The notes under the pieces were generated by a model. It had not been told where the DNA came from. It saw nothing but the letters and a program-made list of their open reading frames with translations, and did no database searches. A DNA stretch of 64,000 nucleotides, taken from assembly GCF_018343775.1 (NCBI RefSeq), contig NZ_CP074349.1:3400001-3464000 (forward strand). The letters are read 5' to 3'. The stretch is from Pseudomonas cichorii (lineage in GTDB: Bacteria > Pseudomonadota > Gammaproteobacteria > Pseudomonadales > Pseudomonadaceae). Positions within the stretch are counted from its first letter, which is position 1. Every line of letters begins with the position of its first letter. Shown here piece by piece: positions 37,519-55,931 of the stretch. A program made the translations under genes and the position numbers.

Positions 37519-39068
37519 GAGTCATTCCTGGGCGCCGCTTCGCTAAGCAACGCATCACGTTTTTGATAGCCGGCAAAAGCAGCGGCGAGCAGTTGATCCT
37601 GAGTCCAGTTGTCGCGCTCGAAGGTATCGATCAGGCGACCTGCCGACAGCACGCCAATGCGGTCACAGATCAACATGAGTTCGCGCAGATCGCTGGACAC
37701 CACCACCAGCGCTCGCCCCTGGCGAGTCAGTTCGCCCAATAGCGCGTAGATGTCGAACTTGGCTCCCACATCGATACCCCGCGTGGGCTCATCGAACAGC
37801 ATCACCGGGCAGTCACGCTCCAGCCAGCGACCGATCACTACCTTCTGCTGATTGCCGCCGGAAAGCTCCGAAACCAGTTGCGCCGGGCTGGAGCTGCGGA
37901 TACGCATGGCCGCGACCTGCCGCTGCGCCAAGGCCAGCTCATCCCGGGCACTGACCACACCGCCGCGAGAGATGGCCGGCATATTGCCCAGCGCGACGTT
38001 GGCGCTGATCGACTGCGACATCAGCAGGCCCTCGCCCTTGCGGTCTTCGGTGATCAGCGCAATGCCATGCTCTACGGCATCGGCCGGTGAGCGGATGGTC
38101 ACCTCACGCAATGGCTGGCCCACTTCGATGCTGCCGGTATCGGCCTTGTCGGCACCGTAGATCAGACGCAAAAGCTCGGTTCGTCCCGCGCCGATCAGGC
38201 CGGAAATACCGAAAATCTCGCCGCGGCGAACCTGAAACGAAACGTCCTGCACCTTGCCAGCACGCCCCAGGCCCTTGACCGACAGCGCGACCTCACCAAT
38301 CTGCCGAGCCCCCATGTCGATGTGCTCACCCAGCTCTCGCCCGACCATCAGCGTGACCAGTTGCTCGCTGTCATAGCGGGCAATAGGCTCCACGCAGACC
38401 AGCTTGCCGTCACGCAACACAGCAATGCGCTGGGCGACCCTGGCCAGTTCCTCAAGACGGTGGGAGATATAAATGATCGAGACGCCACGCGCCTGCAGGC
38501 GACTGACCTGCTCGAACAGCATCTCGACTTCCCGCGACGTCAGCATCGCGGTCGGCTCATCGAGAATCAGCACATGACAATCGCCTGCCAGGTTACGGGC
38601 GATTTCAACCATCTGCTGGTGGCCGATACCAAGATCGCCGACCAGCGTATCCGGGTCGATGGCTTCCAGCCCGACTTGAGCCATGGCCTTGATAGCGTTT
38701 TCGCGCAGAACCTTGCGATCGATCCAGCCCAGGCACCGTGGCATGTCATCCAGAAACAGGTTTTCAGCCACCGTCAGGGTCGGCAGCAGGTTCAACTCCT
38801 GCATGACCATGCGCACGCCCAGCTTTTCAGCCTGCGTACGGTTTGCCGGCTGATAAGGCTGGCCCTGGAAAGACATCACACCGGCATCCGGCACGACCAG
38901 CCCGCCGATGATCTTCGACAAAGTGCTTTTGCCTGCGCCGTTCTCGCCGGTCAAGGCCAGCACTTCGCCGCGCATCAGCGTCAGATCGATATCGCCAAGC
39001 ACCGGTTGGGCGTAGGTCTTGCCGATACCGCTGATGGACAGAACAGCATCCTGGACAGGTGCTGACAT
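37515..39068 (-). CDS. rbsA: Ribose ABC transporter ATP-binding protein (two ATPase domains)
   Basis: 517 aa with tandem ATPase domains. Domain 1: Walker A GENGAGKST (about 40-48) and Walker B HVLILDEPTAML. Domain 2: variant Walker A region ISGLIGAGRTELLR, signature LSGGNQQKVVIGRWL, Walker B VMLFDEPTRGIDVGAK. The degenerate second Walker A is normal for sugar importers of this family. Powers RbsC. Confidence 0.95.
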   Translation of the reverse strand: MSAPVQDAVLSISGIGKTYAQPVLGDIDLTLMRGEVLALTGENGAGKSTLSKIIGGLVVPDAGVMSFQGQPYQPANRTQAEKLGVRMVMQELNLLPTLTVAENLFLDDMPRCLGWIDRKVLRENAIKAMAQVGLEAIDPDTLVGDLGIGHQQMVEIARNLAGDCHVLILDEPTAMLTSREVEMLFEQVSRLQARGVSIIYISHRLEELARVAQRIAVLRDGKLVCVEPIARYDSEQLVTLMVGRELGEHIDMGARQIGEVALSVKGLGRAGKVQDVSFQVRRGEIFGISGLIGAGRTELLRLIYGADKADTGSIEVGQPLREVTIRSPADAVEHGIALITEDRKGEGLLMSQSISANVALGNMPAISRGGVVSARDELALAQRQVAAMRIRSSSPAQLVSELSGGNQQKVVIGRWLERDCPVMLFDEPTRGIDVGAKFDIYALLGELTRQGRALVVVSSDLRELMLICDRIGVLSAGRLIDTFERDNWTQDQLLAAAFAGYQKRDALLSEAAPRNDS

Positions 39069-39121
39069 AAGGTTCTCCCGACGCCTGCCCGGTTCAGGCA
39101 GGCGCCATTACCAGACAGAGA

Positions 39122-40078
39122 TCAGGGTTTGGTGACGAGTTCGACGGGGGTTTCGATCACGCCATTGACGCTATCGACCGGCTGCTTCCTGACCAGTTTC
39201 AAGGCCGCTTCGATACCGAAAACCGCCTGTTTGGCAGCGGACTGATCAGCAGTGGCCAGCACTCGACCATCCTTGAGCATCGGCTTGATGGCGTTGATAT
39301 TGTCGTAACCGACCACCGCCACCTTACCCGCCTTGCCTGCAGCACGCACCGCCGACACTGCACCCAGCGCCATGTTGTCGTTGCCCGCCAGCAGCGCCTT
39401 GAGGTTTGGATACTCATTGAGCATGGCGGCAGCAACGGCGTTGCCCTTGTCGATTTCCCAGTTACCGGACTGCACGGAAACAATCTTCAATTGCGCCGCT
39501 TCCATGGCGTCCTTGAAGCCAGCGGTACGTTGCTGGGCATTGGTGGTGGTCGGCACACCTTCAATGATGCCGACTTCATCGCCTGCCTTCAGATCCTTGG
39601 CCAGGTACTCACCCACCAGACGAGCGCCCTTGCGGTTATCCGGGCCTACAAAAGGCACTTCGATGTTTTTGCTTTTCAGCACGGAGGCATCAAGCTGGTT
39701 ATCAATGTTGACGACCTGGATACCGGCATCCATCGCCTTCTTGATCACCGGCACCAGCGCCTTGGAGTCGGCAGGCGCGATGACCAGTGCATCAACCCTG
39801 GAGACGATCATCTGCTCGACGATACGGATCTGACTGGCCGTATCGGACTCATCCTTGATGCCGTTGGAAACCAGGTCGAAGTCGTTGGAATGTTCTTTCT
39901 GGTAGGCCTTGGCACCCTCTTCCATGGTGCGGAAGAACTCGTTGGCCAGTGATTTCATGACCAGAGCGACCTTGGGCTTTTCAGCCTCCTGCGCATGGAC
40001 GAAAGAGAGGGGCGTGACTGCCGTGGCGGCAGAGAGAATAGCGGCAGCGAGAAGACGTCCAGCGAATGGCAGCTTCAT
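39122..40078 (-). CDS. rbsB: Periplasmic ribose-binding protein
   Basis: 318 aa from ATG 40078, preceded by GGAGATGAACTC. Signal peptide cleaved near VHA (about 28). The mature protein is a class I sugar-binding protein (KVALVMKSLANEFFRTMEEG; DALVIAPADSKALVPVI; LLAGNDNMALGAVSAVRAAG). First gene of the operon and probably the most highly expressed. The frame runs 24 codons further upstream through the operator, so that start is rejected. Confidence 0.95.
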   Translation of the reverse strand: MKLPFAGRLLAAAILSAATAVTPLSFVHAQEAEKPKVALVMKSLANEFFRTMEEGAKAYQKEHSNDFDLVSNGIKDESDTASQIRIVEQMIVSRVDALVIAPADSKALVPVIKKAMDAGIQVVNIDNQLDASVLKSKNIEVPFVGPDNRKGARLVGEYLAKDLKAGDEVGIIEGVPTTTNAQQRTAGFKDAMEAAQLKIVSVQSGNWEIDKGNAVAAAMLNEYPNLKALLAGNDNMALGAVSAVRAAGKAGKVAVVGYDNINAIKPMLKDGRVLATADQSAAKQAVFGIEAALKLVRKQPVDSVNGVIETPVELVTKP

Positions 40079-40145
40079 GAGTTCATCTCCGATGTTGTGA
40101 TTATTTTTCGGGCGAACGACGCAGGATCGAACATTGGGCTCGATA

Positions 40146-40159
40146 CGCAAACGTTTGCG
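40146..40159. promoter_or_regulatory. LacI-type operator, probable RbsR site
   Basis: Perfect 14-base palindrome CGCAAACGTTTGCG, 67 bases upstream of rbsB. The central CG step and half-site are typical of LacI-family operators. Confidence 0.82.
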
Positions 40160-40348
40160 AGTGAGAACTATGAAGAAAGCGTGCTGCTTTTGTCAATTAA
40201 CATAAAGCCAGCCGGCAGCACTGCCGACCAAGAGAAAATGCCACTGAAAAGACGGAAAAAAGACAGAAAAATCAATAAACAGCGATACACCCCCAAACAC
40301 AAGCACCTGATCCTACATAAGAGTTGCGAAAGATCCGACAGTGAAATA

Positions 40349-40364
40349 CTGTATGCCCGTACAG
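40349..40364. promoter_or_regulatory. LexA (SOS) box
   Basis: CTGTATGCCCGTACAG has both consensus half-sites (CTGT-N8-ACAG) exactly. It lies 22 bases upstream of the GTG start of the DUF1654 gene, where LexA would block the promoter. The ATG inside the box is therefore not the gene start. Confidence 0.8.
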
Positions 40365-40385
40365 CAACCCAAGGGATCTTTTTTC

Positions 40386-40640
40386 GTGGCAAGACAAAGC
40401 GCAGCAGTGACCCCCTCCCTTCCCGGCTCCTACGAACGCCTTGGCATCCGGGTGCAAAAAATCATCAACTCGACTACCGCCCAGAAAGCCAGGGCTGCCC
40501 TGATCTTTCGCCAGCCCGACGAGCCGGAAGACGACTGGGCTCAGTTGCTGGAAGAAATAGCCGAGAACGATAACGTCACCCTCGCCTGGCGCGATGACGG
40601 CGGCGTGCAAATTTTCTGGACATTGCCGAAGGAAGACTGA
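40386..40640 (+). CDS. DUF1654 protein, probably SOS-regulated
   Basis: 84 aa from a GTG at 40386; AAGGGA lies about ten bases upstream. Family landmarks: [20 protein letters not shown], then [19 protein letters not shown] and [18 protein letters not shown]1654 proteins are small, soluble and mainly from pseudomonads, with no known activity. The LexA box immediately upstream suggests induction by DNA damage. It is four bases before the endA fragment, so the two genes form one transcript. Confidence 0.8.
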
Positions 40641-40644
40641 CGGC

Positions 40645-41049
40645 ATGATGGTTCGATTTTCTGCCCTGTTCTGCACCACTCTGTTTCTCATTGTTCCACT
40701 GACCGTACAAGCCGATGCTCCGCGAACCTTCAGCGAGGCGAAGAAAATCGCCTGGGGCCTCTATGCGCCTCAAGCGACCGAGTTCTATTGCGGGTGCAAA
40801 TACACTGGCAAGCAGGTCGATCTTGCTGGCTGTGGTTATGTGCCACGCAAGAACGCCAACCGCGCCAAACGCATCGAGTGGGAACATATCGTGCCCGCCT
40901 GGCAGATTGGCCACCAACGCCAGTGCTGGCAGGATGGCGGTCGAAAAAACTGCGCAAAGAATGATGACATCTATAAACGTGCCGAAGCCGACTTGCACAA
41001 TCTGGTGCCGAGCATCGGAGAGGTTTATCCGAGAGAGTCCCGTTTCTAA
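40645..41049 (+). pseudogene. endA: Endonuclease I, truncated at the C-terminus by an island insertion
   Basis: 134 aa with signal peptide (cleaved near VQA). The EndA/Dns family sequence is clear: [43 protein letters not shown] with the catalytic WEHIVPA, and [12 protein letters not shown]. Intact family members are about 230 aa and continue after GEV with NGDR and the remaining catalytic residues. Here the match ends at GEV and foreign codons (YPRESRF) lead to a stop. The integrase operon begins 105 bases later, so integration cut the gene. The catalytic His motif is kept but about 100 residues are missing, so activity is doubtful. Confidence 0.85.
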
Positions 41050-41055
41050 GAAACG
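41041..41055. repeat. Palindrome at the island edge, candidate attachment site
   Basis: Perfect 7-1-7 inverted repeat CGTTTCT-A-AGAAACG, placed exactly at the end of the truncated endA. Flanks extend the symmetry imperfectly (CTGAGAGAG-like left against CTGTGAGA-like right, read outward). Paired half-sites around a short spacer are what tyrosine recombinases bind. Confidence 0.5.
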
Positions 41056-41153
41056 TTGACACTCTTTCCCCTGCCACATTGACAGCAACATAACCCGCTG
41101 ATTAGCTTGGCTTTATGAAGCGATTGGTGCTTCACGTGATCGGAAGCTAAGCA

Positions 41154-42299
41154 GTGAAAGTCAAGTATGTGAAGGAGATAAACTGGTCAGGCGGCCCCCT
41201 CAGCACCTACGCGATCCTCAAGGATGGCCCTCTCACAGAACAGAGCATCGTTCCCGCCCCCACGCTCTTCCTGATACACCTCGCCCAAGAAGGTCAACAA
41301 CCGAATTCAATCCGCTCCTGCGCGCATGACCTAAGAAGTTTCTTCGAGGCGCTGCAAGCTCACGATCAAGACTGGAAGCTGCTTACAAACGCAGACATGT
41401 CAGGCTATCTGTATGGCCATCTAAAAGTGGCAAGGTCGTGTTCCGACAAGTCGATCAAGCACCATATCTCCACGCTCAAATTGTTCTACGCGCACGCTTG
41501 GCAGCTCGGCATGCTTGATGCTCCAGCATCCTTCTCCTATCACTTCATTACCGATGAACAGAAGAAACAGGGCGATGGCAAGAAAAGGGCTAACTTCGAC
41601 CTGTACAATAAGTACGTCGAAAAAGATATCTTCGAAAGACTCCTGGGCAGTATCAAAGCCCAATCCGAATTCGAAAAAGAACGCGACGAGCTTGTGCTTC
41701 ACATGGGTTACTACTGCGGCCTCCGTAGTGCCGAAGTGACCGACTCCCGAAATCTCCTCACGAGTGATTTGAGGGCACGCATTGCTCAAGCCGAAAAGGC
41801 CGATGAACAAACAATAACGGTGTCGATCATTGGTAAGGGGGAGAAGCTTCGACAAGTTGACATCCCGCCCAAAGCCTTTAAAAAAATCAAAAACTTTCTG
41901 GAAGGAAGACGGGGCTCGATAGTCGATGGGCCATTAATATGTACGCGACATGGGAAAGCGCTTTTCTCCGGGCACGCGACTAACACTTTCAAATCAGCGC
42001 GCATCGCTGCCTCTGCGCATATCGACGATGTGTTGATAGAACTTCATCTCAAAGACCCACACTTGCATTTCTTGACGAAGCCCAGCTTCCTCAACTTGAC
42101 CTTTCATGCATTACGACACACGTATGCTACGAACCTTGTGGACTTCTGTTACAAACACGGGTACGACCCATGGCAATATGTTCCCGAGCAAATGGGGCAT
42201 GAAGATGAAGCTACCACTAAAGAGTATGTGATTTTCGACGGGAAACTTCACCGTCGTGAAAAAATTAGGCGTGCGTTGAACGATGATCATGATGACTGA
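41154..42299 (+). CDS. ginA: Tyrosine recombinase GinA (Tn554 TnpA-like)
   Basis: 381 aa from a GTG at 41154 with GGAAG seven bases upstream. N-terminal SAM-like core-binding domain (about 30-140) and catalytic domain (about 155-375) with all residues: Arg191 (CGLRSAEV), His318-Arg321-His322 (HALRHTYAT), His349 (MGHEDEATT) and nucleophile Tyr358 (KEYVIF). First gene of the operon; its 3' end overlaps ginB by 17 bases. Cuts and rejoins DNA at the island ends, probably together with GinB-D. The gin name is by gene order and domain content. Confidence 0.85.
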   Translation: MKVKYVKEINWSGGPLSTYAILKDGPLTEQSIVPAPTLFLIHLAQEGQQPNSIRSCAHDLRSFFEALQAHDQDWKLLTNADMSGYLYGHLKVARSCSDKSIKHHISTLKLFYAHAWQLGMLDAPASFSYHFITDEQKKQGDGKKRANFDLYNKYVEKDIFERLLGSIKAQSEFEKERDELVLHMGYYCGLRSAEVTDSRNLLTSDLRARIAQAEKADEQTITVSIIGKGEKLRQVDIPPKAFKKIKNFLEGRRGSIVDGPLICTRHGKALFSGHATNTFKSARIAASAHIDDVLIELHLKDPHLHFLTKPSFLNLTFHALRHTYATNLVDFCYKHGYDPWQYVPEQMGHEDEATTKEYVIFDGKLHRREKIRRALNDDHDD

Positions 42300-44454
42300 T
42301 ACTACCGATGCTGTTGCGGATGCCCCTGCGAGCTTGTCCACGCTTGCTCCCAACCCTATTCATAACTTCAGCCCTTCTGATACTTATGCTATCGTTGCGA
42401 TGCAAGGTGCCAAGGGTAAGAAAGTCGAGCACCGCCGCGTTGAAATACCAGAGCAATTTCATGGCTGCCCAATCTTTCGCTCTCTGTTGCGATACTTCAA
42501 CAGCACTGAGTGTAAAAACAATTCTTTGATTGATGCCTATAATAGAATCTTGAGATTTAACACTCTCGCGAATTGGGCGATCACCGAGTACCCAGGCGCG
42601 CAGGCGCTACCAGCGGCATTTATGGAAGATTTCACGCGTTATCTACGCACTGAAAAAAAAGCCAAACTCAATACCGTATGTGTGTACATGTCGGTCTACC
42701 GAACGGCATTCGATATCTTTCTGAATGAGGCCTATGGCAATCCTGCACTTGCCGATGCGGCGGCAGCCGTTCGAGAGGCCATTGTGTACATTCCTTCCGC
42801 TTCCAATCGAGCGGGCCAGGCAACTCCGAGTTTAGGGCAAATTACCAACCAGCCCAAAAAAGACGAACTGAAAATTGTAAGATCGACAATACGTTTTTGC
42901 TGTCAATTTCTCAAAGAAATGAATGAGCAGCGATTAGAGTTACTCCGTGATGAAGGTGTGATGCAACAAGTCGCTAACCTGCTTGAAAAGTGCAACGGAG
43001 ATTTCGACCAGCTGAGATATAGTACCAGTAAGACAGATCGCAGTACTGTCTACAAAGCGCTCGCAGGGGCCATTCTAAAAAGCGACAACATACGTCTAAA
43101 AGAACGACTTCTGCATAACAACACTGACTTTGCTTACGCTCAGATCGAAAGGGACTCGCCTTTGACAATCGACGAGGCAAACCGCCTGATCAAGGCAGGC
43201 CTTCGTGCCTCCGGAGCGTTAGACATCTATCCCGAAAACAGTGACCACAAATTATACTTTCACAATATCGACTACCTGTACCTCATAAAGCACACTCCCT
43301 GCGAAGAGGTGGCGTTTGCGTGGTTGCTGGCTACTGACAGGGTTCAATTGGCAGGCATCTCAGATATGCGACAAGAGGAGCTCCGGATAACGCCAAGCGT
43401 TGCGTCCCCCATCTACACTAAAAACCGAAGCGAGACGCCGATTCGCGATGTACCGATGCACCGCTCAAATTCTCTGCAATACCGCGCCTACGTTGATTTT
43501 GACAACCTGAAGATGAGTTTCTATAAACGCTTTCCTGAAACGGGAGATTTACTTTTTGACCTCCCCGTTACAGGTAACATCCAAGGAGTCGACAGCGTGA
43601 CATACAGGCCTTTGGTAATGGCCGCTTTCCAAAACACATTGCAGTACCAGGCGCTCTATGATGCGGATACTAATATTGAAATTTTCGCCGACATCATCCG
43701 CCGTGTCGCTCTGAATAATCGCCCCATCTGGAATAATAAAAAGCGACGGCATGAAAATGCGGCACTTGGTATCACGGGCCAAAATCCTACCCCGGTAAAG
43801 CGGCAAACAATTAGCGTTACCGCCATTGCCCAATCGCGCGCGATCATAGACGCCGACGGCGGCAATCCAGGCAATGAAGCGTTTGAAAAATATTCACAAG
43901 AGGTTGTTGGAGCCGATGCGACCGCGCACTCTCCAAGCGTAAAAGAAGTTGTATATATGCACGCGAGCGAGACGAAATATCGCTTGAAAAAAAGAGCATT
44001 GTTTGCATCTAACGTTGGTCACCTCATGGTAGAGGACGCCCGCAAGGTGCAAGCGGCTATTCGCGATGAAGTAATGATTAGTGTGGCAGATCTAAAGTTG
44101 ATGCTCGGTTGGTCGCAGGCAAAATCCGACGCCGGCGAATTGGAAGAATTTGACGAGTTGCTGTTATCTGCTCAAAAAGCAGGCTTCACTATTTCTCCTT
44201 TTGGACAGCTTGAGAAGGAAAGTAAAAAATTCATCATCACCAACGGCATTACAGCCGCCCTACTTATGAGCTACCGCAACGAGTGCATTAACCAGCTAAA
44301 GCACTTTTCCGTCGAAGATGAGTTAAAAGCCTTTTCAATTGCGATGCAAGCGGCGTACATAGAGGACGCACTTGAGCGATTTGACCAAAAAACCATTATT
44401 CAGGGCCAAGGCATACTTAAGAATTACACATTCCCTGCTCCAGTCGTAAGGTAA
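42283..44454 (+). CDS. ginB: GinB-like large integrase-module protein
   Basis: 723 aa, the second gene of the module. The length, position and coupling (start inside the end of ginA; ATGs at 42283, 42289 and 42292) fit GinB. I can see a core-binding-like region near 60-180 (FNTLANWAITEYPGA; FTRYLRTEKKAKLNTVCVYM) but not a convincing complete R-H-R-Y catalytic set, so it may be an accessory or diverged recombinase. The C-terminal 150 residues include YRLKKRALFASNVGHLMVED and helical segments. Confidence 0.7.
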   Translation: MIMMTDTTDAVADAPASLSTLAPNPIHNFSPSDTYAIVAMQGAKGKKVEHRRVEIPEQFHGCPIFRSLLRYFNSTECKNNSLIDAYNRILRFNTLANWAITEYPGAQALPAAFMEDFTRYLRTEKKAKLNTVCVYMSVYRTAFDIFLNEAYGNPALADAAAAVREAIVYIPSASNRAGQATPSLGQITNQPKKDELKIVRSTIRFCCQFLKEMNEQRLELLRDEGVMQQVANLLEKCNGDFDQLRYSTSKTDRSTVYKALAGAILKSDNIRLKERLLHNNTDFAYAQIERDSPLTIDEANRLIKAGLRASGALDIYPENSDHKLYFHNIDYLYLIKHTPCEEVAFAWLLATDRVQLAGISDMRQEELRITPSVASPIYTKNRSETPIRDVPMHRSNSLQYRAYVDFDNLKMSFYKRFPETGDLLFDLPVTGNIQGVDSVTYRPLVMAAFQNTLQYQALYDADTNIEIFADIIRRVALNNRPIWNNKKRRHENAALGITGQNPTPVKRQTISVTAIAQSRAIIDADGGNPGNEAFEKYSQEVVGADATAHSPSVKEVVYMHASETKYRLKKRALFASNVGHLMVEDARKVQAAIRDEVMISVADLKLMLGWSQAKSDAGELEEFDELLLSAQKAGFTISPFGQLEKESKKFIITNGITAALLMSYRNECINQLKHFSVEDELKAFSIAMQAAYIEDALERFDQKTIIQGQGILKNYTFPAPVVR

Positions 44455-44461
44455 GCAAGCC

Positions 44462-46423
44462 ATGCAAATCAACTCAAGCCAATCCCCGCTGTTTACCATG
44501 TCGCCTGAATCGCCAACCATTGCGAATAAACTTGGCGATGATTCTTTCCAGATTCAGGATCCTATGACTGGCCTTTTTTACATAATAAATTTTGCCTGGA
44601 AATGCTCCCTGCAAAAAAGGCTGTTTGCACAGATGTATTTCATTAGGGGGGATATATCACGGGGCTATGCGGACGACAAAGGACGCATCATTGTAAGTAG
44701 CCTTTCCTCTGCACGCCAAGAAATTGCTTACCTACGCGACTTTTGCGAGTACTGGGAGACAAATTTTCCAGACCGAGCACTTCAGTCCCTGTCTAGGCTT
44801 GAGATACAAACAATGCTCCGCGCCTTTATGGTAAAAAAGGAGAATAATGAGGACGGCGACCTCATTCTTGGCCCCTCCACGATGACAATGTTCTGTAAGA
44901 TTCTAGAACAAACTTATACCATGCTCCATTCCGGAAAGCTCGTGGACGGCGTCGTTCATAGAATGACTGGAGCTTTCAAAAAAAGTACGATGGAGCCTCT
45001 ACTTAAGCATCTGGAAGTTGAGTACGCGGTATGGAGTAAAGGTGGGAGCTACGGCTCAATCCCAATGACCTGTGCTTCGTTGATGCTCGCTGAAGCGATC
45101 ACCCAAATAGAATCAGATGAAGCAAAAATTGCGACTATTTTTTTTACTCAATGGCGTAGCGAAAAGACGAAAATAAAAAGCTGGTTTGGTGAAAAGGATC
45201 GCCTCGCCCTTTACAGAAGGATACAGACGCCGGGATACGTATTGTCACGTTTTGAACGAGACTGGGCGCCGTCTGCAATAAAGCTTGGTAACGCAATCGA
45301 TGCAGCAACCATAGGGCACCACGCATCTTTGCCGTGGAAAAACCAAGGCGCGCTCAGTGATTTTTGTTGCGAGCTTACCAAGGCAGCCTTGACCGTCATC
45401 ACATTATTGAGCGGATTTCGCATTTCGGAAATCAATGGAATGCGACTTGCAGATTACGAGCAAGAACCGGACGGTTCTTGGTGGTTTACCTCAGAAAACT
45501 ACAAGACCGAATCTGGGCTCGCGCATCCAAGATCTCTGCATGGGATTGCAGCAGAAGCAGCAACGCTCATGAAAAACTTGTCGGCGGTGGATACGGAAAA
45601 ATTTAACCTGCCGTTACTCCATAGGGCTTATAGGTCAGAAGCTTTTCTTGTTGCCCGTGGCACTGGCAAGTTCAGCGATGAACAGTGGCTTTCAGATGCA
45701 GGCTACAGCGGCGCCGCGTTGAGGGGCTGGTTCAAGGAGTTCTACAAGATTCATGTTGCAGAAAAGTACCCCGATGCTGGCAGGACTCATAGTGAGGTCT
45801 CGCCTCACCAAGCCCGTCATACCTTTGCAGAGTTTGCACTGCGCAGGTTTGACGGGAATGTCATGGAAAAGATCCGGGAGCATTTCCGCCATTCATATGG
45901 CTCTTTCCACACGAGGCGTTACACCCGCGAGAAACTGAGCGAGTCTGTTCGAATCAGCATGGAACGCGATTACGCCAAAGAAGTGATGGGCCGGATTGCA
46001 AATGGCAAATTGGACGATCGCTTCTATGGGCCAGCGGCCAAACGCATTGACAAAGAAATGGCAGAAATATCCGTGCTTACAGGCGATGAATTCGATGAGC
46101 GCCTCAGTGCCTTGGCTGATGAATTTGAACGGTTCACGGCATTTGAATGGGGCTATTGCGCACTGCGCGCTAATGAGCAGCATATCGCGAAGTGCCATGA
46201 CCCTAAGACTGGAACGCCTAACGTAGATCAACGCAGCACGCCGGAAGTCTGCGCGGGTTGCCCCCACAGTATGAACAATAACCTGCAGAAGCGGGAGCTT
46301 GAGCGCACAGCGATCTCACACCAATTCATTGCAGAAAACCATCCTCTCAAGGCGCTCGGTAACATGAGCGGTGAAGTTGTTCGGAAAATCGAGCGTCGTC
46401 TGGAAGGCGAGGTAACAGCATGA
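44462..46423 (+). CDS. ginC: Tyrosine recombinase GinC (Tn554 TnpB-like)
   Basis: 653 aa. Catalytic residues visible: Arg320 (LLSGFRISEI), His449-Arg452-His453 (PHQARHTFAEF), His477 (HFRHSYG) and Tyr487 (HTRRYTRE). The C-terminus has a Cys/His cluster (AKCHDPKTGTP...EVCAGCPHS, about 575-605) that could bind zinc, as in the large Tn554-type recombinase. It starts seven bases after ginB and overlaps ginD by four bases (ATGA). An active recombinase by sequence. Confidence 0.85.
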   Translation: MQINSSQSPLFTMSPESPTIANKLGDDSFQIQDPMTGLFYIINFAWKCSLQKRLFAQMYFIRGDISRGYADDKGRIIVSSLSSARQEIAYLRDFCEYWETNFPDRALQSLSRLEIQTMLRAFMVKKENNEDGDLILGPSTMTMFCKILEQTYTMLHSGKLVDGVVHRMTGAFKKSTMEPLLKHLEVEYAVWSKGGSYGSIPMTCASLMLAEAITQIESDEAKIATIFFTQWRSEKTKIKSWFGEKDRLALYRRIQTPGYVLSRFERDWAPSAIKLGNAIDAATIGHHASLPWKNQGALSDFCCELTKAALTVITLLSGFRISEINGMRLADYEQEPDGSWWFTSENYKTESGLAHPRSLHGIAAEAATLMKNLSAVDTEKFNLPLLHRAYRSEAFLVARGTGKFSDEQWLSDAGYSGAALRGWFKEFYKIHVAEKYPDAGRTHSEVSPHQARHTFAEFALRRFDGNVMEKIREHFRHSYGSFHTRRYTREKLSESVRISMERDYAKEVMGRIANGKLDDRFYGPAAKRIDKEMAEISVLTGDEFDERLSALADEFERFTAFEWGYCALRANEQHIAKCHDPKTGTPNVDQRSTPEVCAGCPHSMNNNLQKRELERTAISHQFIAENHPLKALGNMSGEVVRKIERRLEGEVTA

Positions 46424-46983
46424 AATTCAGCCTAGGGCAGTATTCCAATACCAATGAAGCCCCCGAAGAGCCTTCCTGGGTCACCTCTACAACGAAGCGC
46501 AACCTTTACTTGCACGTATGTAAGGCTTTTGATCGCATCAAGACGTCCATGGCGGCGGGCGAAAAACTCAGTGTCAAAGAAAGAAGAATCGTAGCTCGCA
46601 ACATTGCCAAAGACAGTGGTGTCCATGACAGCTTGCTGAACAAACGCCGTCAGCCTGAACTCAATGAGTTGATCGTTCAGAAGAATGCTGAACTTGAAGA
46701 ACTGTGGAAAAGCATTTCAGCCACCCAATACAGCCCCAGAATAAAGCGCACGAAGGAGGTCATACAGAACGAGCTTCGCTCACAAGCAGCTGAAATCGAA
46801 CGCCTAACCAATCTTCGTCTTTCTGAGGCGCTCACTGCGGCCATTGGTAACCAGATGGTCGATAGCCATAGAAGCCTCGTAAGCACCATCGAGTATCTGA
46901 AAGCTGAGAACGCCGAGCTTCAGTTTCGTAATGGTGAACTGAGTAAGCAACTTCGCCAGATGATGAAGGCCATCAAAAACTGA
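46420..46983 (+). CDS. ginD: Small coiled-coil accessory protein GinD (Tn554 TnpC-like)
   Basis: 187 aa, helical throughout. The N-terminal half is basic (STTKRNLYLHVCKAFDRIK; SVKERRIVARNIAKDSGVHD, an HTH-like segment), and the C-terminal part (about 105-185) is a long coiled coil. This matches the small last gene of Tn554-like and GInt modules, which sets recombination orientation or efficiency. Last gene of the coupled operon. Confidence 0.75.
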   Translation: MKFSLGQYSNTNEAPEEPSWVTSTTKRNLYLHVCKAFDRIKTSMAAGEKLSVKERRIVARNIAKDSGVHDSLLNKRRQPELNELIVQKNAELEELWKSISATQYSPRIKRTKEVIQNELRSQAAEIERLTNLRLSEALTAAIGNQMVDSHRSLVSTIEYLKAENAELQFRNGELSKQLRQMMKAIKN

Positions 46984-47013: not shown

Positions 47014-48078
47014 ATGCTTAAGTTTTTCCGCCACATCGCTGTTTGTCTTTTACTTTGCTGCACCAACGCCTTCGCGGCCACGAACATAGGTACCTGGAAC
47101 CTCGAACATCTCAGCATCCGGGACACGAAGGATTTTGTTGCAATCGCGAAAGTCGCAAAGAAAGTCGATTTTCTTGCCGTTCAGGAATTGATGAGTGAAG
47201 AGGCTCTTGCCGCATTGGCCAAGGAACTGACCAAACAAACCGGCAAGCAATGGAGCTTTATGGCTTCGCACGCGGTAGGACGATCGACCTACAAAGAAAT
47301 GTACGGCTTCGTGTGGAAGGATGAGGCCATCGCGTACGAGGACGGCGCGGTGACCTACCTCGATCGCAAGGATACATTTGAACGAGAGCCTTACTCCGCT
47401 CGATTTAAATCGCTCACTGACAATTCGTATTTCGTTGTTGCCACTGTCCACATTCTCTATGGCAAAAGCCAAGCTGACCGTGCCTCAGAGATAGTGGCGC
47501 TCTCGAATTATTGGTCGTGGTTGAAAGACACCTACCCAGGCAACAACCAGATCATGCTGATGGGTGATTTCAATACCCCGCCTACCTCACCTGCCTGGGA
47601 TAGTTTGGACTCAAGTGCAAAGCCCCTGGTATTGAATGGGGCATCCACCCTATCTTCCACGGACGGAAAATTCGCCAACCTTTATGACAACATTTTTGTG
47701 AGCAAGGGTTCTTCGATCAAAGTCAATTCAGTTCAGGTGTTTAACTATCCAAAATATCTGGGCCTAACCCATACACAGGGTCGTAGCGGCATTTCTGATC
47801 ACGCGCCCATTTTTCTGAATGCCGACCTCAGTAAAGGTGAAGGCTCGACGACAGTCACAACCCGCCAGGTACAGACCAAAGCGACGGCCCTTCAAGCTGG
47901 GACAAACAAAAAATCAGTCAATGTCGCCATTATTGGCAACCGGAAAACCTTGGTTTACCACCGCCCGGATTGCCCTTCATACGATGCAGTGTCAGAAAAA
48001 AATCGCGTGTCTTTCGATAGCGAAGCAGACGCGGTCAAACAACACTTTCGCCTTGCGGGCAACTGCAAGAAAACTTGA
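47014..48078 (+). CDS. Exported endonuclease/exonuclease/phosphatase (DNase I-fold) protein
   Basis: 354 aa. Signal peptide cleaved near FAA (about 21), so periplasmic or secreted. DNase I-fold residues are all present: Asn29 (TWNLEHL), Glu58 (AVQELM), His146 (TVHILYG), Asp185 and Asn187 (MGDFNTPP), Asp262-His263 (GISDHAPIF). A C-terminal extension (about 305-354) has VYHRPDCPSYDAVSEKNRVSF, resembling the small zinc-type domain found at the ends of secreted nucleases. It begins 30 bases after ginD. It is unrelated to EndA in fold, yet both are exported nucleases; the island brings one nuclease while destroying another. Confidence 0.82.
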   Translation: MLKFFRHIAVCLLLCCTNAFAATNIGTWNLEHLSIRDTKDFVAIAKVAKKVDFLAVQELMSEEALAALAKELTKQTGKQWSFMASHAVGRSTYKEMYGFVWKDEAIAYEDGAVTYLDRKDTFEREPYSARFKSLTDNSYFVVATVHILYGKSQADRASEIVALSNYWSWLKDTYPGNNQIMLMGDFNTPPTSPAWDSLDSSAKPLVLNGASTLSSTDGKFANLYDNIFVSKGSSIKVNSVQVFNYPKYLGLTHTQGRSGISDHAPIFLNADLSKGEGSTTVTTRQVQTKATALQAGTNKKSVNVAIIGNRKTLVYHRPDCPSYDAVSEKNRVSFDSEADAVKQHFRLAGNCKKT

Positions 48079-50453: not shown

Positions 50454-50722
50454 TCCTTGGCAAAGTACGCGGCGGCCTTTTTTAAGATGTCTCGCTCTTC
50501 AGTGACCCGCTTGAGTTCCGCTCGCAGTCGACGCAGTTCAGCGTGCTGGTCATCGTCTTGCTGCCGTTCTTCTTGAGGTTTGCTGTAGCGCTTTATCCAC
50601 GCATAGAGGCTATGCGTCGACACACCAAGACGGGCCGCTACGTCAGCGACGGGAAGCTTCTTTTCGGTCACTTGATTGACCGCTTGGGTTTTGAATTCTT
50701 CGGGATAACGCGGGTTGCTCAT
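50444..50722 (-). CDS. IS3-family OrfA (helix-turn-helix protein)
   Basis: 92 aa. HTH near residues 8-45 (YPEEFKTQAVNQVTEKKL; VADVAARLGVSTHSLYAWIK) and a leucine-zipper coiled coil at the end (HAELRRLRAELKRVTEERDIL). The frame overlaps orfB, with slippery AAAAAAG near its 3' end. Confidence 0.92.
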   Translation of the reverse strand: MSNPRYPEEFKTQAVNQVTEKKLPVADVAARLGVSTHSLYAWIKRYSKPQEERQQDDDQHAELRRLRAELKRVTEERDILKKAAAYFAKECG

Positions 50723-50784
50723 GGCACCTCCTGATTGGCCTCATTTTAAGGCATGGAGGTGTCTACGAAACCCGGGGCGATTCA

Positions 50785-51395
50785 TAATTAGGCACTACAA
50801 CTATCAAATATCGTTGACTGACATGGCTGAGCAGGAACGAAAGGTAGACGCGCAACTGGCACCAATGTTTGAGGACTACGCTGACCAGTTTGCCCTGAAC
50901 GGCACCCCTGGCGCTCAAATTTATCTTGATAGAAAAGAGCTCACGCTTCGCTTCGAGTCGCACGGACAGCGAGACTATTTGTGGGAAATCGGCAGTGGCG
51001 CTAACTGGATGGGATACCACATCGCGGCGTTTCTAGGCATTCATGAATACCTGTCGAAAGAGGAAAATCGCAAGCTCCCACCGTTCAGTTTCATCGTGAT
51101 CGACCAGCCTAGCCAAGTCTACTTTCCGAGCAGCACCGGCGGCGTGAACGCACTAGATGCTGGTTTCAAAGCTGTCAATCAAGCTAGGCCAGCGGACGTT
51201 ATTGCCACCCGCCGAATCTTTGAAGTATTGGCTGAGGGACTGAAACGAGCAGGTCACTTTATCCAGATTATCGTTTTGGAGCACGCAGGCCCCGACATCT
51301 GGGGGAATGTGGCTGACACCGTGCCCGTCGCTGCTTGGGAAGGCAAAGACGATGGTCTCATCCCTGCTCACTGGATTCATTCACACAATGATTAA
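50785..51395 (+). pseudogene. DUF3732 protein C-terminal fragment, 5' end lost at the IS
   Basis: The frame is open from the IS edge and gives about 200 aa. IGSGANWMGYHIAAFLGIHE and PFSFIVIDQPSQVYFPS are the C-terminal hallmarks of DUF3732 SMC-like ATPases (signature-like helix and Walker B-like IVIDQPSQVYFP). Walker A and the coiled coils, several hundred residues, are missing. The IS right end abuts the fragment, so insertion plus deletion removed the 5' end. DUF3732 genes often sit with a small partner in predicted ABC-type defence systems, which would be inactive here. Confidence 0.78.
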
Positions 51396-51693: not shown

Positions 51694-53253
51694 ATGCATC
51701 TCACGGAAGACGCTCTTGAGTTCGCTCGGCGCCACATCAGCGCTTATTACGATACGGACTTCTTCCCAAAGCCGTTCGAATTTTCTGCCCTGTGGCATTG
51801 CTGGGAAGAGGTCAAAGCCTACCTGCTAAATACCCCGTTAAAAGATGTTTTGAGCACTCAACCAAAAGTGGTTGCATGGCATAAAGCACGCGGTGGGTAT
51901 CGGGTGGTGCATCAGCTCGATCCCGTAGACGCAATCATCTACACCGCTTTGGCTTATCTGATCGCTGGCAAAGTGGAGGCAGCCAGAATGGGGCCTCACG
52001 TATCGTGCGCCTACCGCATTGAGGTCAGCTCAAATAGCTTCTTCTCGCGCGGCTCAGGATTTGATATCTACCGAAAAAATTGCGAACTTCTCGCAGAAGA
52101 ATACGACTATGTCCTGGCAACCGACATCAGCGATTTCTACAACCAAATCTACCTCCATCGCGTCCGTAACGCTCTGGAGGACATTGGGGCCGAGCCGGAT
52201 CTAGCTCAGGAAATCGAAAGCTTCCTGATGAGGCTCAATCATAAGGCATCGCAAGGACTGCCCATCGGGCCAGCCGCCTCCATCATCTTGGCGGAAGCTG
52301 CACTCATTGATGTTGACCAATTTATTTACCAGCACGGTTTGGAACATGTGCGGTATGTCGACGACTTCCGTATTTTTGCTAAAAGTGAAGATAAGCTCAA
52401 AGCAGTGCTTGAGGAGCTAGTTGTTTACCTGCACCAACAGCATCGCCTGGGCCTCGTTTCGGAAAAAACAAAGATTCACGAATCCCAGGCCTTCGTTCAT
52501 GAAGAGTTGAAGAACGCCTACCAACTCGAAAAGCTTGATCTCATGCGCAGCATTGAGGCGGGCAATCAATACGGCGAATTCGCCTCCGACGATGATGACA
52601 GTCAATTCGAAGATGATGGGTTCGACGACGATGAGGAAGACGACCCGGCTCCACTCGGCGACCGCTTGGCCGAAGCACTCAGTCGAGCACGCGATTCAGG
52701 AGTACTTGACCTGGGAGTAATCCGCGCAATTATTCGCCGTGCAAAGCACGCTCGTGATAGTACGATTGTTTCTCTGCTCTGCAAGGATTTGCCTTTTTAT
52801 CTGCCTGTGATAAATGACATCGCGCTTTACTTCGATTCATTATTTTCTTTCGATCATGATGAAGTGTGCGATGAACTATCGGAAGCCTGCGATAAAGGTG
52901 ATCTCGCCAGCCAGGGAGCCAAGGTCTGGATAGGTTGGTACCTTGCACGTCATGTTGAAAAGCTCGACATTACCCTTCGAACCTACCTCCAAAGCTGTGA
53001 CGTACCAACGATTACTATTGCGGAGCTCGGCAAAAAAAATCTGTCTTGGTCGAAAGCAGCGAAGCACAAAGTGTCGAGCTCTGCGTCATGGGATCGAAGA
53101 GCCTACATTTACTCTCTGAGCGGATTGTCCACCGACGAGCGAAAGGTAAGTCTCCACACCATCAGACGAACCGTCGCGTTGGCACAGATCGACAGCTGGG
53201 TACTCAACTGGGTGAGCAATGGAGCTCCCGATCCGAAGCCTGCTCCTCACTGA
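51694..53253 (+). CDS. Stand-alone reverse transcriptase, DRT/Abi-like group
   Basis: 519 aa. RT fingers-palm motifs: motif A ATDISDFYNQIY with catalytic Asp144, motif B QGLPIGPAAS (187-196), motif C YVDD (221-224). No maturase, endonuclease or Cas1 part, so not a group II intron or CRISPR RT. An acidic low-complexity segment (about 298-322, many Asp and Glu) precedes a helical C-terminal domain of about 190 residues, as in defence-associated (UG/Abi) RTs. I cannot assign a DRT type by eye. Retron identity is not supported, since I find no clear msr/msd. Probable role: anti-phage DNA synthesis, inferred from family and setting. Confidence 0.82.
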   Translation: MHLTEDALEFARRHISAYYDTDFFPKPFEFSALWHCWEEVKAYLLNTPLKDVLSTQPKVVAWHKARGGYRVVHQLDPVDAIIYTALAYLIAGKVEAARMGPHVSCAYRIEVSSNSFFSRGSGFDIYRKNCELLAEEYDYVLATDISDFYNQIYLHRVRNALEDIGAEPDLAQEIESFLMRLNHKASQGLPIGPAASIILAEAALIDVDQFIYQHGLEHVRYVDDFRIFAKSEDKLKAVLEELVVYLHQQHRLGLVSEKTKIHESQAFVHEELKNAYQLEKLDLMRSIEAGNQYGEFASDDDDSQFEDDGFDDDEEDDPAPLGDRLAEALSRARDSGVLDLGVIRAIIRRAKHARDSTIVSLLCKDLPFYLPVINDIALYFDSLFSFDHDEVCDELSEACDKGDLASQGAKVWIGWYLARHVEKLDITLRTYLQSCDVPTITIAELGKKNLSWSKAAKHKVSSSASWDRRAYIYSLSGLSTDERKVSLHTIRRTVALAQIDSWVLNWVSNGAPDPKPAPH

Positions 53254-53303: not shown

Positions 53304-55931
53304 TCAACCGTTTCGCAACGCTTCAAGCCCCCGATCCATCGACATGGCTGCAGCCACGATTGCACTCACTGCGGATCGGTCGAACTCATGGTCTTGCTGC
53401 GCGTCATGAGTACCGCTATTGAGGCAGCCCCATTCTATGGAAGCCCCGTTTATCCCGATCAACGCATCGAGCCCAGCAAGGATCTCGTCAACGCCCTGAG
53501 GAGGGTTTTGAAGCCTGGCGAGTCCGCTTCGAAGCTTGACGCACTTATTGTTTAGTTCGAACTTGGCCCGAGGGCCTCCAAGTTTCAACTCTAAAACCCC
53601 ACCGTGCCTCCGGCCAAACCACGTCCACGCCCGATCAGTCAGACTCTCAATTGCGGCCCTGGAATGGCGCAATGCATCGCGTTTTTGCTCTGCCTGCAAT
53701 GAAGCCTGCGCTAACAAAACGTAGTTTTTTGTGGGAGGGTCAGTGTCGATACGTAAATGGTGCTCTCCGTAGTGTGGAAGAAACGAATACTTGCGAATTT
53801 GAGCAGCCCGCTGAGCACCAAGCTCCTGCTGGATCCGATGCAGGAACTCCTCTGCGTGAGAGGTCAGAATCACTTGCTTGGCATCAAGCAGCCCGCTTTC
53901 AAAGAAGGTACGCCAGATCCCATCTCGATGCTCGTCATCGATCGCGTTGACGACGTCGTCAAAGATTACAATCGGACAATTTTCGGCAAGATTCTTTGCG
54001 AGCAAAATCGCCAGGCCGAGGCACCGGATATGCCCCTCGCTCAAGATCATCAGCGCATCGAAGACTTCACCTGGTTGACCTATGAACTCAATCTCGATTC
54101 TCCCGTTTTCAGCCAGGGGCAACCTGAGCGCATGGATCTGAGCAGGCAGGGGATCCTCTCGGTTAAACAGGTTGTAGAGATCTCGGGCACTATCACCTAA
54201 TCCTTGCAGCAATTGGGCGGGCAACGCAGCGAGGTACGCCTGTAGTTGGGGGAGATAGGCGTCGTAGGCAGCCTTGACCCGCCTATGATGCTCTACCGTA
54301 TGTGCTTCAATACGCACCTCTTCGATGAGTTGCTGGTTATCAATTTCGAATTGAGCAATTATTGCCTGCGCTTGCGTGAATGCTTCCAACGCCTGTGACC
54401 GTAGAAGCTTGCAGCGCTCGATTTCGAGTCTGAACCCATCAACCCTCGTGCGCTGCTCGGCAATCCCATTTCTTTCCTCGATGGTCTGACGACTAGCCAC
54501 ATCTGACTGTTCAATGCGACCCGCTAGCTGCACCAGGCCTTGCCACGCCCTCTCGTCGTCATCCATCCAAGGCTGAAGCCAATGGCCGGCTGAAGCGAGC
54601 GGAAGAAGCGGTAGATGAGCCGCCCGCAATTCATTGGGGCAGACCTGCGCAGCGACTACGGTCACACGTTGCATCTCAGCCAGCAGTAAACGCAGCGCCT
54701 CGTTGCAGTTATTCGTAGCCTGCTCTGACGCTAGCTGTAACGCTTTGAGTTCAGCGAGCTGCACGAGCCCTGCGCGCGCGCGTTCAAATGGATCGTAGCT
54801 GACACGATCCAATTGAGTACCACAAGCCGGACACGATGTTGCCCTTTCCGCCAGCTTCAGTACCGCGTCGTAGAGGTTGGAATAGGAGACGTCAGCCGCC
54901 CGAGCATTGAGTGCTTGTAGTGCGGCTTGGCTTGCCGCGTGGAGGTTGTAAACCTGTGCGCGTTTCTCCTCCAAACCTGCAGGAGTACATCCATGAATCA
55001 CCGGCAGCGGTGATTCCAGGACACCCTGCAAATACGCCAATTGTCCCTGTTTGCTCGGCGTACCCAAAATCCAATCAACACATGCTTGGTAAGTACTGCC
55101 AGCATAAATCCTTGCGGCCAGGGCCTCCTCTTCCATGGCAAGCTCAGCAAGCCGTTGGGGGTAGCCGTCCACGTTCTGCTGCGATGCGGCGACTTGGTTA
55201 CGCCTTCCCTCCAGCTGAAAAGCTCTGAGGCCAGAGACACTCAGGTTCTCGTCAAGCGAGGCATTGAATCCACGAACAAACTCGCTGAATTGATCAACGC
55301 CAAACAAGGTCGCGATCAATTGTCGCTGGTCACCTGGAGTTCTAGCGGCTATTCGGCCGAAGTCATCAAGCCGATTTTTTTCGACAAAACAGAACCGGAA
55401 GTTTTCTTCATTCGCTAGCACCTCAGCTTCTGGCCCACCGTTTAGAGAACCCAGTAACCGTGGCCGCACGTGTCGGCGTAAGCGCGCGTTATTGCAGTAG
55501 GCACGATGATCAAAACGCTTTGCTTCAGCCTCACTGATTGATCCAAGCATAGCCATTTCGAGTGCTTCGAAAAAACTGCTTTTTCCCGTGCCATTCGGCC
55601 CGTAGATCAAGGTGATGTCATGGCTAAGATCGAAAACCTCTACCTGCATAAACCCCCGGAACGGCCCGACCTCCAGTCGATTAAGTCTTAGACGACTACG
55701 GGCTGCTTGAGCGAACTGGGCAGCCTCAGGCAATTCGATAGGTGCATGGGGTAACTGCTGGAGCGTGATCGGAGCCAGCCTGCTAGAGCGCCCTCGCCTT
55801 TGAGTGCCAACCTCTGCCAAACTCTGCAGATTGGCCATGACAATATTGGCTAGGCGGCGGACATCCTCATGAACTGGCTGCGCAGCCAGGTAGACCAAAA
55901 AACGCTGATATTCGGCGTGTAAACTCGACAT
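53304..55931 (-). CDS. Rad50/SbcC-like zinc-hook ATPase
   Basis: 875 aa. Walker A GPNGTGKSS (111-119), long helical arms, a Rad50-type zinc hook CPAC (Cys367, Cys370), ABC signature LSEGH (630-634), Walker B PIVIFDDV (653-660) and H-loop His692 in ILTSHAEEF. A unique N-terminal extension of about 80 residues precedes the ATPase, and a 150-residue C-terminal domain of unknown fold follows. No Mre11-like nuclease is next to it. GGAG stands seven bases before the ATG. Such solitary SMC-like proteins occur in anti-plasmid and anti-phage loci. Not the housekeeping sbcC, which is paired with sbcD. Confidence 0.85.
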   Translation of the reverse strand: MSSLHAEYQRFLVYLAAQPVHEDVRRLANIVMANLQSLAEVGTQRRGRSSRLAPITLQQLPHAPIELPEAAQFAQAARSRLRLNRLEVGPFRGFMQVEVFDLSHDITLIYGPNGTGKSSFFEALEMAMLGSISEAEAKRFDHRAYCNNARLRRHVRPRLLGSLNGGPEAEVLANEENFRFCFVEKNRLDDFGRIAARTPGDQRQLIATLFGVDQFSEFVRGFNASLDENLSVSGLRAFQLEGRRNQVAASQQNVDGYPQRLAELAMEEEALAARIYAGSTYQACVDWILGTPSKQGQLAYLQGVLESPLPVIHGCTPAGLEEKRAQVYNLHAASQAALQALNARAADVSYSNLYDAVLKLAERATSCPACGTQLDRVSYDPFERARAGLVQLAELKALQLASEQATNNCNEALRLLLAEMQRVTVVAAQVCPNELRAAHLPLLPLASAGHWLQPWMDDDERAWQGLVQLAGRIEQSDVASRQTIEERNGIAEQRTRVDGFRLEIERCKLLRSQALEAFTQAQAIIAQFEIDNQQLIEEVRIEAHTVEHHRRVKAAYDAYLPQLQAYLAALPAQLLQGLGDSARDLYNLFNREDPLPAQIHALRLPLAENGRIEIEFIGQPGEVFDALMILSEGHIRCLGLAILLAKNLAENCPIVIFDDVVNAIDDEHRDGIWRTFFESGLLDAKQVILTSHAEEFLHRIQQELGAQRAAQIRKYSFLPHYGEHHLRIDTDPPTKNYVLLAQASLQAEQKRDALRHSRAAIESLTDRAWTWFGRRHGGVLELKLGGPRAKFELNNKCVKLRSGLARLQNPPQGVDEILAGLDALIGINGASIEWGCLNSGTHDAQQDHEFDRSAVSAIVAAAMSMDRGLEALRNG

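Follow-up and report, generated by a model that had tools for sequence, protein, structure and literature searches.

An SE-like island interrupts endA in Pseudomonas cichorii and carries a nuclease gene behind its recombinase module

Analysis of a 64,000-nucleotide stretch of Pseudomonas cichorii DNA (the window) showed that endA is split in two, and we consider it likely, with a probability of roughly 0.8, that a 48.3-kb island of the SE kind is seated in the gene and that its nuclease cargo offsets the loss of EndA. Directly 5' of endA lies a DUF1654 gene (40341..40640, + strand; Pfam PF07867, E = 2.2e-32), which marks the locus and was present at all 12 chosen reference endA loci. The 5' part of endA (40645..41049, + strand, with a predicted start codon; PF04231, E = 1.5e-9; NCBIfam deoxyribonuclease I, E = 2.2e-44) matches its family up to ..SIGEV, which confirms the first-pass annotation in its claim that the match stops after GEV. 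Host sequence ends at base 41024, and the truncated frame continues through 7 element-derived codons to a stop at 41047-41049, inside the element. The missing 3' half, which that annotation had proposed to seek past the right end of the window, begins at window coordinate 89364 on the same contig, 48.3 kb downstream and 25 kb beyond the window.

The comparison with intact relatives, also proposed at that stage, showed the insertion site to be unbroken in the relative G018 (locus L011) and in 29 of the 29 relative loci read, these being the best-matching of the relatives' loci, with a match found in 120 of 194 genomes. The window element and six relatives are inserted at the identical endA base (7/7), and the identity of protein 3 between the window element and the other six ranges from 31 to 91%; the seven are not independent cases, as the three copies of MnuA type form one clade. 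The earlier proposal of a multi-recombinase island at a specific endA site is supported. Other endA insertions had been suspected in two genomes (G012 and G100), where the gene was found to continue, with small length differences instead. Disruption of EndA without an island was seen at two loci (L135 and L136).

At the left junction, the host hexamer AGAGGT (attL; 41019..41024, + strand) is identical in the uninterrupted endA of G018 and conforms to NGARGT in all seven elements. It is followed by the left terminal repeat C, TTATCCGAGAGAGTCCCG (41025..41042, + strand), whose partner C', TTATCCGATCAGACCCTG, lies past the window on the reverse strand (89340-89357), directly followed by the right hexamer GAATGT (89358-89363). 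The terminal repeats match at 10-13 of 18 positions and are perfect over 8-10 bases only, with a 6-bp spacer in 7/7 elements. Across the seven, the inverted ends co-vary, such that TTATCCGA, TTATACGGTA or TTATTTACC occurs at both ends of one element. Sub-terminal sites were also apparent, CGTTGACA at 41054..41061 (+ strand) and CATTGACA at 41077-41084, and similar sites occur inside the right end. The best-scoring inverted match, GTTGACAYTCTT, was rejected as the element ends, having left 30 bp of non-host sequence outside at the left; TTATCCGA was preferred because it meets the host base exactly and co-varies with its partner across elements. The attR hexamer is unlike the attL hexamer in six of the seven elements (GAATGT, TGATGT, GCAAGT, TCAGGT and TGCAGT are among the hexamers concerned), and none of these six differing hexamers was found among 71 EndA sites, every one of which reads NGARGT (some of these loci overlap, and the four plasmid EndA genes are left out of the count). 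Later mutation of an original right hexamer could also account for the difference. In the mechanism that we propose, the recombinases would join the element end junction (C, the 6-bp spacer and C') to a 6-bp target within the conserved GEV-NGDR stretch of endA, so that the host hexamer would remain beside C at the left and a spacer probably derived from the donor would remain beside C' at the right. Insertion truncates EndA, the frame being closed by the element's own stop codon. Movement may proceed by circularization and copy-out, by analogy with published SEs, and the island is presumably mobile.

Four same-strand genes occupy this end of the element, and their ORF coordinates agree with the coupling first described, namely two overlaps (17 and 4 bases) and one 7-base gap; the distance from endA to the first of them, given as 105 bases, is 104 bases from stop to GTG. 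All four are on the + strand: (i) gene 1, intA (41154..42299, GTG start), encodes a tyrosine recombinase of 381 aa (Phage_integrase, E = 3.1e-11), (ii) gene 2, tfp-like (42283..44454), encodes a 723-aa protein without a Pfam or PHROG match, whose model resembles tyrosine recombinases, (iii) gene 3, intB (44462..46423), encodes a large tyrosine recombinase of 653 aa (Phage_integrase, E = 4e-4, under the curated cut-off), and (iv) gene 4, srap-like (46420..46983), encodes 187 aa with weak matches to coiled-coil families only and has positional counterparts in G546, G664 and G665. Full R-K-H-R-H-Y sets are found in genes 1 and 3, which bears out, residue by residue, the complete sets that had been assigned to these two proteins under the names GinA and GinC. 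In gene 1 these are R191, K228, H318, R321, H349 and Y358, all six kept in 5/5 sequences; in gene 3 they are R320, K348, H449, R452, H474 and Y487, kept in 8/8 except for H449 (7/8).

Protein 2 had been described as showing no such set. The first His is indeed missing (Ala516), but R353, K380, R519, H549 and Y558 are present. All 53 sequences of one alignment retain this R, K, R, H and Y, with Ala in place of the first His, and K380, H549 and Y558 persist in 13 of 13 sequences that include relatives of 18-25% identity. H549 and Y558 fall in a stretch of the model (525-594) with pLDDT under 50, and their assignment is drawn from conservation and from the distance of 9 between His and Tyr, which IntA shares, and not from the model. 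To judge from its residues, gene 2 does not appear plainly dead, since it keeps most of the catalytic ones. A published-type Tfp also retains its Tyr (6/6), and the difference may therefore be one of degree. Comparison of gene 2 with a published-type Tfp by profile was non-significant (E = 0.015, probability 3%), as was Foldseek by itself; its profile comparison with IntA gave E = 0.13, a PDB sequence search gave no match up to E = 1, and neither tblastn with gene 2 nor megablast with the module against plasmids gave a hit. The VIA-align list included 9rd5 (Phi3T SroF) among its 32 top rows, an entry whose kind is not evident from the title.

Among the systems compared, SEs come closest. These have the order intA-tfp-intB-srap, with IntA and IntB carrying the catalytic R-H-R-Y and Tfp a recombinase fold without the catalytic motif, imperfect inverted repeats of 13-19 bp at their ends, a 6-bp spacer and footprint, and a strand-biased circle with no empty site, and elements of the SE-6283 type insert in bcp and bring a bcp gene (PMC9345347, PMC10214605). 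The endA element shares the gene order, the catalytic pattern as regards IntA and IntB, the inverted ends, the 6-bp spacer and footprint geometry and a Gammaproteobacterial host; SE-6945 and the pAQU1 module close to blaGMA-1 have the same four-gene layout. The large IntB is homologous nearly end to end, the gene 3 profile matching SE-type IntB at E = 2e-15 over 487 columns (crossed controls, 0.39 and 0.17); a PDB sequence search with IntB returned a single XerC-like chain at E = 0.058. The IntA profile matched pAQU1 IntA at 1.9e-5, a non-specific result since an integron integrase also matched. Gene 4 against pAQU1 Srap gave E = 0.27 as a single sequence and 0.018, then 0.2, by profile; single-sequence profile comparisons with the pAQU1 proteins were too weak for use. 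The pAQU1 interval 39040-41591, tried as an IntB-Srap pair, fits in size and shows no similarity. Unlike published SEs, the element targets endA, its genes 2 and 4 lack a significant match to the Tfp and Srap compared, and gene 2 retains most catalytic residues; on its sequence it is best called SE-like, and not a proven SE. An apparently non-catalytic protein 2, suggested as a novelty, stands as regards the absent first His, but a non-catalytic second gene is a published SE feature, and here most catalytic residues are kept.

With Tn554, which has tnpABC, a 6-bp footprint and no counterpart of gene 2 (Tfp), the element shares one ordinary and one large recombinase, a small helper and the footprint, and differs, as far as published descriptions go, in having four genes against three, gene 2 being the extra one (PMC10214605). 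The RIT archetype has three catalytic recombinases of 315-410 aa and 34-bp inverted ends (PMC10214605), unlike the genes of 381, 723 and 653 aa, the fourth gene and the ends perfect over 8-10 bp described here. No conjugation or mobilization genes were detected in the 20 of 34 cargo ORFs (at least 90 aa) scanned with Pfam. The use of endA as a target, put forward as worth recording, is real but already published, as P. aeruginosa genomic island GI1 sits in endA (PMC4821235). GI1 is likewise a large island splitting the gene; by description, it differs in that the accessible text of its report gives a 2-bp CA repeat and names no recombinase.

Just behind the recombinase genes, adjoining gene 4, lies an MnuA-type nuclease gene (47014..48078, + strand; NCBIfam MnuA, E = 1.7e-15, at 57.8 bits against 185 at the NCBI family cut-off; sunset, E = 4.1e-6, also below cut-off). 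By inspection its product has a signal-peptide-like start, and it ends in a C-terminal sunset domain, which it has in common with the second EndA carried by sister elements; it is presumably an exported, active nuclease. Each of the seven elements contains a secreted-nuclease gene, MnuA-type in three and a second EndA in four, and we propose that the cargo nuclease makes up for the lost EndA.

The first-pass annotation took the module for ginABCD, that is, for a GInt targeting endA. The element does resemble GInts in its four coupled genes at one end, coding for three recombinase-like proteins and a small one, its large cargo, its 6-nt crossover and its site specificity (PMC5385486), and GInts have been reported from 10.4% of Pseudomonas replicons. 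In GInts as published, however, GinA and GinB are catalytic and GinC lacks part of the motif (PMC5385486, PMC10214605), giving full/full/partial by position, whereas here the pattern is full/partial/full, with the complete sets in genes 1 and 3. In 59 genomes scanned with Pfam Phage_integrase, the matches listed included no adjacent pairs. As gene 3 is moreover homologous to SE-type IntB, the GInt identity is unsupported and we regard it as quite improbable. Somewhat less doubtful, though still a minority view, is a separate group, intermediate among SEs, GInts and RIT elements, in which three recombinases could be active alongside a helper. The residues kept in gene 2 and its lack of a significant match to published-type Tfp speak for such a group, while the homology of IntB, the identical gene order and the Tyr of published-type Tfp speak against it.

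As to the break, it is barely credible that the four genes have nothing to do with it and that an ordinary integrase-type island or decay of endA is responsible: endA can be disrupted without an island, as noted above, but here both halves are present and the break falls at the same base with matching ends in 7/7 elements. That the nuclease genes are chance cargo and not a replacement for EndA appears unlikely, if less so. Pseudomonas commonly has a second, full-length EndA of the cargo type (56/298 genomes), full EndA copies lie 11 kb (G683) and 23 kb (G038) from srap, and SE-like modules at three other targets (L083, L084 and L085) have no copy of the target gene within 17-20 kb by tblastn, so that carrying a substitute is not general. 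Against chance stand the nuclease gene in every element, the finding that each of the four EndA-type genomes has its sole full-length copy of the cargo type within the element, and the endA locus of 14 of 298 sampled Pseudomonas genomes, which is held by an MnuA-type gene in genomes that gave no EndA hit and which independently suggests equivalence to EndA.

We retain the reading of an SE-like island with compensating cargo. More tentatively, the elements might form an endA-targeting SE-like lineage with three working tyrosine recombinases that survives breakage of its target through an interchangeable substitute, either an EndA homolog or an unrelated MnuA-type enzyme that shares its C-terminal domain and has replaced EndA at the endA locus itself elsewhere in the genus. 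The published bcp case involves a copy of the broken gene, whereas here the proposed substitute may be an enzyme not homologous to the lost one. Two questions become testable, namely how widely SEs supply a replacement for their interrupted target and what the middle tyrosine recombinase fold protein does in SE-type elements. EndA-type nucleases bear on DNA uptake, and replacing one may therefore affect gene transfer itself. The MnuA tree leaves out two rows (G105 and G038). Among the MnuA loci examined, the DUF1654 gene precedes MnuA in 14 of 16.

EndA reads normally up to ..SIGEV, after which seven codons and a stop lie within foreign DNA. The window corresponds to bases 3400001-3464000 of one 5.98-Mb contig, and the missing 3' part of endA, which the first-pass annotation had suggested seeking past the right end, was found on the same contig and strand, beginning at window coordinate 89364, 25 kb beyond the right edge. 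The gene is whole in the related genome G018 (96% identical across the endA stretch), and also at the insertion point in all 29 relative loci read, these being the best-matching ones from a search with matches in 120 of 194 genomes. Disruption of EndA genes in the absence of an island also occurs, through minor insertions or deletions that alter gene length in two other Pseudomonas (L135 and L136). The left inverted terminal repeat, C (TTATCCGAGAGAGTCCCG), starts immediately after host base 41024, and the right one, C', reads TTATCCGATCAGACCCTG on the other strand with its last base at 89357; with C and C' as ends, the element measures 48,333 bp. The junctions are CGG[AGAGGT]TTATCC (attL) and CGGATAA[GAATGT]CAACGG (attR), the hexamers being bracketed, and the G018 empty site is CGGAGAGGTAAACGG. 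Additional TTGACA sites were seen just within both ends.

Within the left part of the element, four coupled ORFs were recovered, with the overlaps (17 and 4 bases) and the 7-base gap exactly as first described. Gene 1 (IntA; 41154-42299; 381 aa) matches Phage_integrase (E=3.1e-11), gene 2 (tfp-like; 42283-44454; 723 aa) gave no match in Pfam or PHROG, gene 3 (IntB; 44462-46423; 653 aa) has a weak Phage_integrase match (4e-4) under the curated cut-off, and gene 4 (srap-like; 46420-46983) encodes 187 aa. Alignment with relatives showed that R191, K228, H318, R321, H349 and Y358 of IntA are conserved in 5 of 5 proteins, and R320, K348, R452, H474 and Y487 of IntB in 8 of 8, with H449 in 7 of 8.

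A scan of 398 Pseudomonas genomes identified IntB in 6, namely the window's own and five others, and the gene 2 profile picked out the identical six genomes, while a pattern scan of genome contigs yielded three loci (P. viridiflava, P. marginalis, and P. sputi). Two of these eight finds are apparently duplicates of the same contigs, as their matching lengths suggest, which leaves six relatives, or seven elements with that of the window. All seven share common ancestry and interrupt endA at the identical base; their lengths are 48.3, 50.0, 57.3 and 76.1 kb, with G683 and G038 measuring about 91 and 93 kb and the G322 element being spread across two contigs. Left and right ends covary: five elements have TTATCCGA, G683 has TTATACGGTA and G038 has TTATTTACC. 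In all seven elements the C-side hexamer follows the endA pattern NGARGT, whereas the C'-side one is unlike it in six (GAATGT, TGATGT twice, GCAAGT, TCAGGT, and TGCAGT); in G683, CGAGGT occupies both ends. Since NGARGT was present at all 71 EndA sites read among the loci examined, the six unusual hexamers either came from elsewhere or have drifted. TGATGT, absent from these 71 sites, is common to the attR of G328 and G427, elements of unequal size, a hint that the two may share a non-endA donor site.

The first-pass annotation had proposed a ginABCD island (GInt). In GInts the complete catalytic sets reside in GinA and GinB, whereas SEs (intA-tfp-intB-srap) carry them in IntA and IntB, with Tfp in between. 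GInts also use a 6-nt crossover (PMC5385486), so that end geometry alone does not discriminate, although the fingerprint and footprint geometry of the ends is as published for SEs (PMC10214605). For comparison, we assembled SE-6945 on pSEA1 (via the Tfp accession given in PMC10214605), the pAQU1 four-gene module near blaGMA-1, which we take to be the published SE-Pda04Ya311, and five related modules on other plasmids. An IntB profile of eight proteins from this clade and order-level relatives (seven retained by hhalign) matched that of seven SE-type IntB proteins with E=2e-15 over 487 columns, the long N-terminal region included, versus 0.39 and 0.17 for the crossed controls; gene 2 against SE-type Tfp (13 vs 6 sequences) gave 0.015, which is not significant. 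Two further genera of the same order also harbour modules with this four-gene arrangement (L083, L084, and L085; counting the window's own, 4 of 293 genomes). Because architecture, IntB descent and ends agree with SEs, we call the element SE-like rather than a proven SE. Equally arranged modules are present on plasmids of Marinobacter and Shewanella (L070, L071), where the third protein is very large, at 895 and 926 aa, and an integron integrase follows the Marinobacter module.

An island inserted in endA, P. aeruginosa GI1, is already published (PMC4821235), a P. aeruginosa SE has been reported in another gene (PMC11064530), and the literature searched, which covers few subscription journals, yielded no account of endA occupied by an SE or GInt. 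On two IncP-7 plasmids, the plasmid-borne endA has been reported as disrupted or shortened (PMC6399125). In a collection of 72,556 plasmid records, 107 carry EndA-like genes and 25 of these belong to Pseudomonas, which makes plasmid endA genes possible landing sites.

A nuclease gene is carried by all seven elements. In the window, srap is followed by an MnuA-type gene (47014-48078; MnuA-family E=1.7e-15, under NCBI's cut-off), whose product has a C-terminal sunset domain and, by inspection, a start resembling a signal peptide. The G427 and G328 elements have an MnuA-type gene at the same position; those of G194 and G322 have a 321-aa EndA in its place, as does G683, and G038 has one full and one broken copy of it. 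In these four EndA-type genomes, the sole full-length 321-type copy is the one inside the element. The MnuA-type protein and the 321-aa EndA have the C-terminal sunset domain in common (42% over 105 columns), and a search for it in the core EndA of G018 gave no match. Across the genus, full-length EndA of the cargo type is frequent, with 56 of 298 genomes counted from the listing.

Among 298 sampled Pseudomonas genomes, 19 had an MnuA-type gene (E limit 1e-20) and EndA was not found in 19 (E limit 1e-30), with an overlap of 14 genomes (Fisher p=3.4e-16, uncorrected for descent). A DUF1654 gene precedes endA in all 12 chosen reference loci, and in those 14 genomes, representing 14 of the 16 MnuA loci fetched, it is directly followed by the MnuA-type gene, indicating that in some Pseudomonas the latter took over the locus of endA; the remaining two (G023, G105) retain EndA. 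The element copies form one clade in an 18-row tree, which does not fix the clade's place among the locus copies. In a published precedent, SE-6283 interrupts bcp, and its cargo includes a homolog of that gene "as if it complements" the disrupted copy (PMC9345347). The SE-like modules at other targets, named from sequence, interrupt an ion-channel-like gene (L083, L084) and a cation-antiporter-like gene (L085); tblastn over the 17-20 kb read at each found no copy of the target gene, and compensation is thus no general rule. L083 and L084, distant modules from two bacterial families, both interrupt the ion-channel-like gene at its FEDWTDY codons.

The island cargo further includes a reverse transcriptase (51694-53250) with a strong match to Drt8, a defence family (PADLOC E=5e-139). 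Partial matches to LmuB-type SMC-like ATPases at 50715-51395 and 53304-55931, one of them a DUF3732 C-terminal piece adjoining an IS3 transposase, suggest a putative broken defence gene. A UvrD-type helicase with GajB-like matches lies at 58261-60885, with another UvrD-type gene beyond the window, and an FRG-domain protein of the candidate defence family PDC-S15 at 61242-62546. Beyond the right edge, window coordinates 68344-69879 and 71036-75433 hold an IS66 transposase and an AsnC-type regulator, the latter adjoining a block of putative amino-acid metabolism genes.
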